In this document: one piece after another, positions 6,464 through 22,681 of the stretch
How the letters are laid out: every line of letters starts with the position of its first letter
Numbering within the stretch: position 1 is the stretch's first letter
Notes under the pieces: model-generated
Database searches by the model: none
What the model was told of the DNA's origin: nothing
The model's input: the letters and a program-made list of their open reading frames with translations, nothing else
Made by a program: the position numbers and the translations under genes
DNA from: Bacteriovoracia bacterium
Lineage (GTDB): Bacteria > Bdellovibrionota > Bacteriovoracia > Bacteriovoracales > Bacteriovoracaceae
Assembly (NCBI GenBank): GCA_030431635.1
Contig: JAUIIL010000005.1
Span: 1 to 64,000, forward strand
Direction of reading: 5' to 3'
Length of the DNA: 64,000 nt

Positions 6464-6757
6464 ATGAGTAACAAACTTTATGTAGGTAACCTTTCATTTT
6501 CTGTTAAAGAAGAAACTTTAACTCAACTTTTTTCTGACTGTGGCTCAGTTGATTCTGCTAAGATTATCACTGACCGTGATACTGGTAGAAGTAAGGGTTT
6601 TGGCTTCTTTGAAATGAGCTCATCTTCAGAAGCAGAAGAAGTTATCTCTAAATACAGCGGCTATGAAGTCGAAGGGCGTGAGTTAAAAATTAGTATTGCA
6701 AAACCACAAGAAAAAAGTGGTGGCTTTCGTTCTGGTGGCGGTAGAGGCCGTTATTAA
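6464..6757 (+). CDS. single-RRM RNA-binding protein with Gly-Arg tail
   Basis: A 97-residue protein with one RNA recognition motif: RNP2 KLYVGNL (residues 4-10) and RNP1 KGFGFFEM (about 44-51). It ends in a short Gly/Arg-rich tail (GGGRGRY). It is a paralogue of 3442-3720 and is preceded by a strong GAGGAG ribosome-binding site. The tail is typical of cyanobacterial and delta-group RNA chaperones. The last bases of the gene overlap the probable start of a methyltransferase in another frame. Confidence 0.92.
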   Translation: MSNKLYVGNLSFSVKEETLTQLFSDCGSVDSAKIITDRDTGRSKGFGFFEMSSSSEAEEVISKYSGYEVEGRELKISIAKPQEKSGGFRSGGGRGRY

Positions 6758-7421
6758 TAGTGAGATTTGTAAGTATCTTGATTTAAAATACCAAAGTATT
6801 GATATAAGAGGCACAGATGTACATTTGTGCTCTCTTAAAAATTCTCAACAATTTAGTGATAAAGATGGCAAAGCAGAGCAGCTTGGTATCAGCAGCGCTT
6901 TATGGCCATTATTCGGAACAATTTGGGATTCAAGTATTATTCTTGCAAACCATATTGCAAGCATTGATTTTAGTAATAAAAAGATTCTCGAAGTTGGTTG
7001 TGGCCTTGCCTTAACAAGTCATTTTCTTCAATTAAAGGGAGCTGATATTACAGCAACTGACTATCATCCAGAGGTTATTAAATTTTTAGAGGCAAACTCA
7101 AGATTAAATAGAATAAAAATAATCCCTTTTGTACAAACAAATTGGGATGATTTAGACTCAGAGCTTGGATGTTTCAACTTAATCATTGGTAGCGACATTA
7201 TGTATATGCAAGAACACCCTGAAAAATTGGCAAAATTTATGGATAAGCATGCTGATTCCAACTCGACTGTTATTGTAGTAGATCCTGGAAGGCATTATAT
7301 AAATCTTTTCACAAAGAATATGCATTTATATGAATTCAAGCACGAAAATATAATACCAAAAGATGTGAAAGATTTAAGTAAGCCTTTCAACGGTCTTATT
7401 CATTATTACACTAGGTTCTAA
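6753..7421 (+). CDS. METTL21-like class I methyltransferase
   Basis: About 222 residues with a Rossmann SAM-binding domain: motif I KKILEVGCGLAL, then ITATDYHPEV and LIIGSDIMYM. The upstream LGISSALWPLFGTIWDSS matches the family 16 protein-lysine methyltransferase style (METTL21-like), so the substrate is probably a protein. No ATG, GTG or TTG follows the RRM stop early enough to keep the conserved N-terminal region. The best-placed start is an ATT at 6753 with an AGAGG site 5 bases upstream. GTG at 6717 or TTG at 6696, inside the RRM gene, are alternatives. It is translationally coupled to the RRM gene either way. Confidence 0.75.
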   Translation: MNSEICKYLDLKYQSIDIRGTDVHLCSLKNSQQFSDKDGKAEQLGISSALWPLFGTIWDSSIILANHIASIDFSNKKILEVGCGLALTSHFLQLKGADITATDYHPEVIKFLEANSRLNRIKIIPFVQTNWDDLDSELGCFNLIIGSDIMYMQEHPEKLAKFMDKHADSNSTVIVVDPGRHYINLFTKNMHLYEFKHENIIPKDVKDLSKPFNGLIHYYTRF

Positions 7422-20306: not shown

Positions 20307-20852
20307 ATGAGCAGATTTAATAAAGATTATTTAGATGCTTTCTTGGGAATCGTTCGTAAGTACATGCAAATGCGTGGGGGACTTTCTCAGAAAGAACTAG
20401 CAGAGATTACAGACTCCAGTGTTTCCACCATGAGCCGGTTTTTAAATAAGAAAACAGATGCCCTTGATGACATGATGATTGCTCAAATAGTTGCAAAGTT
20501 AAATATTCCATTGCACGAGATGATCGATTTCGTTGAGGAAGAGTATACCGATCGATTTAAGAAACTCGTCTCTTTTTATAAAGAAGCCGAAGAAGCCGAT
20601 ACAGATGGAGGAGAAGGAACTGCTCAAAACCAAAATGCGAGGGCCAACGTAAGCATTGGTGGCAAGAAGCGATCGATTCCATTTGGAATGGAAGGAGAGA
20701 GAGGAATTAGTGATAAGCTAGCAAGTCTTAGTCCAAGACAAAAGGCTTATCTCAAAGACTTCCTTGATCTTGATATGGAAGGACGTGATCTCATGGTTGA
20801 TATTGGTAATTCACTTTTCCGCTACTTTAAACAAAGAGGTGTTGAATTTTAA
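20307..20852 (+). CDS. XRE-like helix-turn-helix regulator
   Basis: A 181-residue protein. The helix-turn-helix lies at about residues 25-70 (LSQKELAEITDSSVSTMSRF, then LNKKTDALDDMM). A charged linker and a C-terminal helical domain (SPRQKAYLKDFLDLDMEGRDLMVDIG) follow. The ATG at 20307 is chosen for its AGGAGG site; the frame is open further upstream without such a site. It is followed by an exported VWA-like protein and mutY, so it may control this set. Confidence 0.75.
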   Translation: MSRFNKDYLDAFLGIVRKYMQMRGGLSQKELAEITDSSVSTMSRFLNKKTDALDDMMIAQIVAKLNIPLHEMIDFVEEEYTDRFKKLVSFYKEAEEADTDGGEGTAQNQNARANVSIGGKKRSIPFGMEGERGISDKLASLSPRQKAYLKDFLDLDMEGRDLMVDIGNSLFRYFKQRGVEF

Positions 20853-21658
20853 AATTCGCTCTAATACTTCTTATTTCATTTGACCTGTATGCTGTCCCTG
20901 AGCAGCTAGAAATTTGGTTTGTCTCTGAACCAAGAGTGGCCTCTACTTTTTTAACCCCACTACTTAAAGACTCTTTTAAATACTCCGCTCCTTTTGCACA
21001 AAAACTAGCTTGTATTCCCATGGGTGAGCATTGCTTTGATCCTCAAATAGGACTTTATGATAAAGATAAAAGTGATACTGCTGGTATTGAAGCTACTCCC
21101 AACCTAGAATCTCTTCGTAATGAAAAGGAAAAACTTCCTACGGCCAGTAGTCTTGATAGAAACCTTATTGATTGCGAAAAGAAAGAGAATATTTTTGATA
21201 TTTTCTGTGGAAAAGCCAGAGGAGATGACACCACATCATCAAGTCAATTTCAAGTTTGGATAGATACGAGTTCTAGCATGAAAAAAATTGATGATGTCGA
21301 TTCATCAGGCACATGCCAACGTAAAAGCTTTATAGAGCTCATGCGAAACACTTGCTCTAAAGTTCACGATGTTGATTTTCATGTTTTTAACACGAGAAAA
21401 AAACAACTTGGTGGTATTGATGATGTTTGCCTTAACGTTGGTCTTAACGACAGCAAACGTTTGGTTGAATGGATTAAAACAGCTCAGATGAAAAAATTAA
21501 TCATTATTACTGATATTTATGAACTTGATGTCACTCTTAGTAATTACGTCCTCTCTCAAGGTGGGATTATTCGAGGTGATATTAACGGTTCAGCTCTCAC
21601 AGCAAGTAATCTCCCTGGACTCGCGATGGAAGTTGCCAAAAGCTGTCAAAAGAAATAA
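20846..21658 (+). CDS. exported VWA-like protein with possible ATT start
   Basis: About 270 residues. From 20846 the frame reads LKFALILLISFDLYA, a good signal peptide. A mature domain with QVWIDTSSSMKKID follows, which has the DxSxS metal-site motif of von Willebrand A domains, then KKLIIITDIYEL. An in-frame stop lies just upstream, and the only codon that keeps the whole signal peptide is ATT at 20846, with GAGG 6 bases before it. The first conventional start, GTG at 20936, would remove the signal. It overlaps the XRE gene end by 7 bases. Function unknown. Confidence 0.6.
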   Translation: MLKFALILLISFDLYAVPEQLEIWFVSEPRVASTFLTPLLKDSFKYSAPFAQKLACIPMGEHCFDPQIGLYDKDKSDTAGIEATPNLESLRNEKEKLPTASSLDRNLIDCEKKENIFDIFCGKARGDDTTSSSQFQVWIDTSSSMKKIDDVDSSGTCQRKSFIELMRNTCSKVHDVDFHVFNTRKKQLGGIDDVCLNVGLNDSKRLVEWIKTAQMKKLIIITDIYELDVTLSNYVLSQGGIIRGDINGSALTASNLPGLAMEVAKSCQKK

Positions 21659-21667
21659 ATCTTCTCT

Positions 21668-22681
21668 ATGTTTTCAAAACTTTTAAAATGGTCGCAGAAG
21701 TTTCAAGATCTTCCATGGAGAAACAAAAGAACTCTCTACTCAACCCTTGTTTCAGAGATAATGCTTCAACAAACAACTGTTGGAACCGTTCTTAATCATT
21801 ACGAAAAATTTCTCAAGGAATACCCCACTATTTTTGACCTGGCCCAGGCCAGTGAAGAACAACTTACTATTAGCTGGAAAGGTCTTGGTTACTATAGAAG
21901 GGCCAGAAATTTAAAAAAGGCTTGTGAGCATATTGTGAATGATTATAAGGGAGACATCCCTCTTCACTATGAAACACTCATTTCAATCCCGGGGATTGGT
22001 CCTTATACAGCAAGTGCACTTATTGCAATTGGAGGAAATAAGCCTGCAATCGCAGTTGATGCCAACTTAGAAAGAGTTTTAAGTCGTCTTTTTACAATTG
22101 ATGAATTTAAAGGACCCAAACTTCAAAAGAAAATTCAAGAGAATGACAAAATTTTAAAACTTGCAAAAAAATTAGGGGCCAGGGATTTTAATGAAGCACT
22201 GATGGATCTGGGTAGAAATATTTGCCAAGCCAGAAAGGCTTCTTGTGAGATTTGTCCTCTTCGCTCTGGTTGTATGGCCTATGAAGAGAAAGCTGTACTT
22301 CACTATCCTCGAATTAAAGAAGTCAAAAAAGAGAGTTTTGAACTTGAATTGGCCCGCTTTATTGTTAAGAAAAAGGATTCCTTGCTTGTTTACCAAAAAA
22401 AGAAAGGTCAGTGGCTTGAAGGACAATGGGAAGTACCAACATTTATTCTTAGATCAGAAGACAAAAAACTTATTCAATACCCTATTCTCAAATATAAAAT
22501 AAATAAAAAAGAGTCCCAAATTATTAAAACTGGTATCACAAAATATAAAATCATTAATTATTTGCTAGAGCTTGATTACTCAGACTTTAAAAAACTTAAT
22601 GTTGAGGGAGACTATAAATTTCGACCAATTAAACCTGAAAGCAATTTAGCTTCAAATATTTCTAAGTTTTTGAAAAAATAA
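21668..22681 (+). CDS. mutY: A/G-specific adenine glycosylase MutY
   Basis: A 337-residue DNA repair enzyme that removes adenine mispaired with 8-oxoguanine. The general acid is Glu30 in SEIMLQQTT, a helix-hairpin-helix IPGIGPYTASAL spans residues 107-118, and the catalytic Asp is 131 in VDANLERVL. Four [4Fe-4S] Cys are at 186, 193, 196 and 202 (spacing 6-2-5). The C-terminal Nudix-like lesion-recognition domain is present (GQWEVP). The usual DGN near the Asp reads DAN here. It starts 9 bases after the exported VWA-like gene. Confidence 0.93.
   Translation: MFSKLLKWSQKFQDLPWRNKRTLYSTLVSEIMLQQTTVGTVLNHYEKFLKEYPTIFDLAQASEEQLTISWKGLGYYRRARNLKKACEHIVNDYKGDIPLHYETLISIPGIGPYTASALIAIGGNKPAIAVDANLERVLSRLFTIDEFKGPKLQKKIQENDKILKLAKKLGARDFNEALMDLGRNICQARKASCEICPLRSGCMAYEEKAVLHYPRIKEVKKESFELELARFIVKKKDSLLVYQKKKGQWLEGQWEVPTFILRSEDKKLIQYPILKYKINKKESQIIKTGITKYKIINYLLELDYSDFKKLNVEGDYKFRPIKPESNLASNISKFLKK

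Follow-up and report, generated by a model that had tools for sequence, protein, structure and literature searches.

How does a ribosome begin a gene whose open frame lacks any conventional start codon that would keep its signal peptide? This question is raised by the gene of an exported VWA-like protein of 270 residues (20846..21658, forward strand) in the window, which is the stretch of 64,000 nucleotides of a Bacteriovoracia genome analysed here. The initial annotation proposed that translation begins at an AUU codon, and the answer given below is that this particular gene is best explained by an AUU start, while the standard starts of its relatives point to a loss in the lineage of the window and not to an old AUU start.

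The junction and the genes that meet there

The gene upstream of the junction (20307..20852 as its likely extent, forward strand) encodes a small HTH regulator of the XRE/Cro-C1 type (Pfam HTH_3, E 5.4e-5). Its ATG at 20307 is preceded by the Shine-Dalgarno (SD) sequence AGGAGG, and its conserved C-terminus, ...LMVDIGNSLFRYFKQRGVEF, is followed by the stop codon TAA at 20850-20852. Downstream of the VWA-like gene lies that of an A/G-specific adenine glycosylase (21668..22681, forward strand), which is MutY-like, holds the Pfam domain HhH-GPD and scores 256.4 bits against NCBIfam mutY, under the curated cut-off of 286.5.

Read in order, the junction comprises GAGG (20836-20839), the spacer TGTTGA and ATT (20846-20848), the proposed initiation codon. 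The last three bases of the spacer are an in-frame TGA (20843..20845) that blocks any start further upstream, and direct reading finds no ATG, GTG or TTG in frame between this stop codon and the GTG at 20936-20938, so that the first standard in-frame start lies at +86 from the upstream stop. Within the open frame, ATT is the sole near-cognate codon that stands at a suitable distance from the SD, and translation after it reads L-K-F-A-L-I-L-L-I-S-F-D-L-Y-A. The end of the TGA at 20845, the ATT at 20846 and the GAGG six bases ahead of it, as first annotated, were all borne out by this reading. Since the HTH gene stops at 20850-20852, the ATT overlaps the last codons of that gene, in which it is formed by the Glu-Phe codons GAA TTT.

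The frame of the VWA-like gene is -1 relative to the upstream gene, an arrangement in which a -1 frameshift might produce a fusion of both proteins. However, the in-frame TGA is separated from the upstream stop by GAA TTT only, and no slippery heptamer of the X_XXY_YYZ type is present; moreover, the signal peptide would end up inside a fused protein, and the relatives described below have separate starts. A frameshifted fusion is scarcely credible, and it was rejected on the absence of a slippery site at the junction.

Residues 1-16 of the protein read from ATT are signal-peptide-like, as judged from the sequence itself rather than by a predictor. Within the first 32 residues, the best mean Kyte-Doolittle value over nine residues is 3.0 when the protein is read from ATT, versus 1.4 when it is read from GTG, and the hydrophobic core of 100 relatives has a median of 2.81, like the window protein read from ATT. 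The claim that a start at GTG 20936 would delete the signal peptide thus holds for this signal-peptide-like segment, and a conserved PEQLEIWF segment, seen in an alignment of 34 sequences, would be lost with it.

The same alignment shows that the window protein retains its conserved cysteines and a full-length reading frame. A DxSxS motif stands at residues 140-144, where D140 and S142, together with D223, are invariant in the 34 sequences, and S144 is present in the window. No Pfam family matches the window protein at E 0.1 or better, and NCBIfam yields just two weak, unrelated matches. The AlphaFold2 model (mean pLDDT 79.1) alternates strands with helices; its best Foldseek match reaches E 0.012, with none at 0.001, and the weak matches mix Ro60, an integrin I domain, TFIIH and SPOUT methyltransferases. 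The first three hold VWA domains. The VWA label is weakly supported by these results, and the product is fairly described as an exported protein that carries conserved cysteines and a motif resembling a metal site.

Start codons of the relatives at the same junction

The exported VWA-like protein is present in 106 of the 129 genomes searched within the same family, the window's own counted, while 22 genomes that represent other families of the phylum are all without it. The junction was read in 103 of these 106 genomes, the other three being fragments at contig ends. In 87 of the 103 loci, namely the window and 86 relatives, the gene that ends at the junction has the C-terminal motif of the HTH gene, whereas the 16 loci with no recognisable upstream gene, two of which (L050 and L102) are truncated by the end of the contig, were excluded. 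Positions of starts are counted below from the first base of the stop codon of the upstream gene.

Relatives with a normal start had been named in the initial annotation as evidence against an AUU start, and such relatives are what the comparison found: all 86 anchored relatives have an ATG, GTG or TTG near the junction, in a range from -35 to +37, and the window is the sole one of the 87 loci without any. In 82 of the 86, the standard start falls between -2 and +15 nt of the upstream stop. Most common is TTG at -1 (41 relatives), followed by ATG at +2 (16) and ATG at -1 (12), with GTG at +2 in one relative and ATG or TTG at +3 to +13 in 12. The remaining four begin farther off (L010 with GTG at -14, L017 with ATG at -35, L019 with TTG at +29, and L065 with GTG at -14 or TTG at +37), so a displaced start is not in itself peculiar to the window. 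At the two places where most relatives begin, the window holds TTA at -1 and AAA at +2 (20849..20854), neither of which is a start codon.

Among the 87 loci, the overlapping junction takes the form TTGA or ATGA in 53 and TAATG in 16. The start of the second gene overlapping the stop of the first, with the SD within the first gene, is therefore an arrangement conserved across the loci, and the coupling of both genes is predicted from it. The in-frame codon at the place of the ATT is variable. It is ATT in 17 relatives, in which a normal start follows after one or two codons. The ATT thus arises from the Glu-Phe codons of the upstream gene and is shared by these 17 relatives, which argues that it was never selected as a start and was simply available. 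An AUU start ancestral for this gene was considered and rejected on the standard starts of all anchored relatives and the variability of this codon. These standard starts argue instead that a start was lost in the lineage of the window, and the lost codon may have been either UUG at -1 or AUG at +2.

In a tree of the HTH and VWA-like proteins from 46 loci, the window groups with G034 (support 0.993), whose start is ATG at +2. This closest relative is just 47% identical, the terminal branch of the window measures 0.46, and no close relative of the window sequence was found among the genomes searched. A further scan of named genomes yielded 80 loci, 78 of them already in the family set; the new ones are L239, which begins with GTG at +3, and L241, a fragment, and none of the 80 is a second record of the window's own genome. 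With G034 so distant, the loss may be old or young, and a recent inactivation would look alike.

Recent inactivation is also the most serious of the alternatives. According to it, the start codon was lost and the gene fell silent, or nearly so, with its frame still looking intact. The standard start kept by every anchored relative fits such a loss of function, as does the inefficiency of AUU where it has been measured, and 11 of the 73 family genomes at least 90% complete are without a match, suggesting that the gene is dispensable. On the other hand, the frame is full length and the motif residues are conserved, divergence is ordinary despite the long terminal branch, and the predicted SD, described in the next section, is the strongest of the 87 loci. 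We consider a silent gene unlikely on balance, if by no means negligible. Decay as a pseudogene was rejected: relative to its HTH neighbour across 46 loci, the VWA-like protein of the window shows no excess divergence (rank 12 of 46, z 0.37).

Shine-Dalgarno pairing and AUU elsewhere in the genome

The SD match GAGGTG (20836..20841, forward strand) lies within the upstream gene, and its predicted pairing, -9.6 kcal/mol for the 23 upstream bases against the usual bacterial 16S tail rather than an anti-SD read from this genome, is the strongest of the 87 loci; by the energy of the contiguous run, the window ties for first with L038 among 83 loci. This strength could be due to chance, given that, with Arg-Gly encoded at this place, the codon usage of the contig would produce the required bases in about 24% of cases. 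From the last G of GAGG, the distance is 6 nt to ATT, 9 to TTA and 12 to AAA. A spacing of 6 nt is the commonest among the relatives that start at -1 (18 of 53), while 9 nt occurs in 7 of these 53 and 12 nt in one of 15 that start at +2. The idea that the position of the SD singles out the ATT holds only in part, since relatives also use 9 and 12 nt, and the SD does not indicate the ATT alone.

A coupled, positioned ribosome might also begin at another non-standard codon, the UUA at 20849, which occupies the same place as the UUG of 41 relatives and whose spacing of 9 nt is inside the range of the relatives. But AUU is a single base away from AUG and UUA two bases, and AUU is already an established natural start of infC, both in the literature and in this genome, which makes initiation at UUA very improbable.

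Use of AUU by this genome is supported by its own infC gene (L104, G000:C4), which has AUU and no standard start, and which reads GGAGGTGATTT-ATT with 6-nt spacing. Of the 30 infC loci of the family (L104 and L105-L133), all but three could be read by the motif search, and in 21 of the 27 the frame holds no standard start from the last in-frame stop up to the conserved N-terminal motif. In the infC genes of relatives, a GGAGG-type SD is frequently followed by ATT or ATA; several genomes of genus g24, for instance, read GGAGGTGGGTT-ATA.

A second possible AUU start had been proposed at 6753, in a methyltransferase frame at 6696-7421 of the window. This companion case is weaker than proposed. 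TTG at 6696 and GTG at 6717, 6720 and 6735 lie in frame ahead of the ATT, and conventional starts are thus available; nevertheless, L135, the closest relative of this gene (45% identical), has no conventional start and holds an ATT at the matching place behind the SD-like AAGGCGG. An AUU start may be common to both genes. Among the six relatives that come next, five carry an ATG in frame close to the start, and L139 is without a standard start.

Both cases had been taken together as a sign that this lineage tolerates AUU starts at coupled junctions. A scan over 259 kb of this contig, comprising 237 predicted genes and based on a rough hexamer model that would miss cases with upstream starts like that at 6753, flagged 13 genes with no standard start by eight codons beyond the onset of coding signal. 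Ten of these reach a standard start no later than codon 24 and another reaches one at codon 95, while an SD-spaced AUN or CUG codon is found in the other two, namely the VWA-like gene and a TPR/SH3 gene (G000:C14:149397-150059, reverse strand; L245). The latter has no in-frame standard start and an ATG in another frame beside a run of A5. Its protein is found in 116 of the 124 family genomes searched, and in all 24 loci of relatives that were read, an in-frame ATG lies at most 36 codons from the match. This gene looks like a case of homopolymer frame break, although its appearance could reflect either an error, phase variation or a non-standard start. With two of 237 genes fitting the pattern, one of them an apparent frame break, the scan argues against a general AUU habit and does not bear out the proposed tolerance of the lineage.

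As a side observation, the gene with no standard start in frame before codon 95 (G000:C14:220513-221622, reverse strand) shows coding signal from about codon 22 and has an upstream ATG in another frame, beside a run of T8.

With two further genes of the contig showing apparent frame breaks next to homopolymers, the assembly is perhaps not flawless, and a sequencing or assembly error may also be considered for the VWA-like gene, the true sequence of which would then hold TTG or ATG at one of the usual places. A single differing base would be enough to restore the TTG form at -1. However, the frame relation of the window to the upstream gene is common to 75 of the 86 relatives, so that this is no frame break of one or two bases such as a homopolymer indel would cause; the error would have to be a substitution or, if the true start were the ATG seen in the closest relative, a larger difference. 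The assembly, moreover, is rated 100% complete in 19 contigs. We regard an error as improbable, and more so than a silent gene.

A proposed AUU start and its relation to known starts

The explanation we favour, with modest confidence, is that the start codon was lost in the lineage of the window and that the ribosome now initiates at AUU 20846, guided by the SD and coupled to the HTH gene. The UUG or AUG used by the orthologues would have disappeared from the window gene, and initiation would take place one codon ahead of where UUG usually stands and two ahead of the usual AUG. GAGGUG, six bases ahead, would guide the ribosome to the AUU, assisted by ribosomes that end the HTH gene at UAA 20850-20852, through either termination-reinitiation or local re-binding. 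The product would start with fM-L-K-F-A-L-I-L-L-I-S and keep its signal peptide. Its output would probably be low, about a tenth of that from AUG by analogy with the AUU and AUA starts of S. aureus, and initiation at AUU would be expected to be sensitive to IF3.

The closest known counterpart is infC, the gene of IF3, which starts with AUU or AUA and in which, as in the window gene, an extended SD precedes the AUU with a spacing of 6 nt. Both differ in several respects. The non-standard start of infC is widespread in the family and autoregulatory according to the literature, whereas the one proposed for the window gene is found in one lineage; in addition, the window gene overlaps its upstream gene and its relatives use standard starts. 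The conservation of the non-standard start among orthologues, as seen in infC-like AUU genes, is not shared by the window gene, given the standard starts of all its anchored relatives.

Outside infC, a study on S. aureus describes mapped starts with extended SDs for cvfC1 (AUU) and ccpN (AUA), with AUU and AUA starts yielding about 10% of the AUG level in poor medium, and ccpN up to 30% in rich medium (PMC13009471). The window gene would resemble both in being a non-infC gene with an AUN start and an extended SD. As presented there, however, the starts of cvfC1 and ccpN are experimentally mapped and conserved across species (PMC13009471), unlike the start of the window gene, which is unconserved and deduced from sequence. 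A further example is sigR from Streptomyces, whose GTC start is described as repressed by IF3 (PMC5472188). Both sigR and, as predicted, the window gene are protein-coding genes with a non-standard start overlooked by ordinary annotation, although it is for the GTC start that a regulatory role is demonstrated (PMC5472188). According to the same source, very few non-canonical starts have been experimentally characterised (PMC5472188).

Regarding the signals around the start, SDs are reported to tend to be stronger in genes with GUG or UUG than in those with AUG, in an analysis that leaves AUU outside its scope (PMC5622118). Overlapping gene pairs of the NTGA and TAATG types are associated with translational coupling in two reports (PMC6728339, PMC12548453). 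The relatives share these junctions, whereas the window retains the geometry of the overlap without an NTG start.

Altogether, use of AUU by the window gene is likely, and the gene would belong to a known kind of AUN-started genes, although the loss of a standard start in one lineage would be unusual. Gene finders limited to ATG, GTG and TTG would miss such a start or trim off the signal peptide. Since 86 relatives retain a standard start near the same junction, the locus offers a clean natural comparison for how a gene at an overlap survives once its start codon has been lost. More tentatively, the start may have shifted over one or two codons to a latent AUU that has an unusually strong SD, with the output of the VWA-like protein set jointly by the translation of its HTH partner and the level of IF3. 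If true, this would represent a coupled start outside infC that evolved naturally and is tuned by IF3, in which the capture of a start by a near-cognate codon is made visible.
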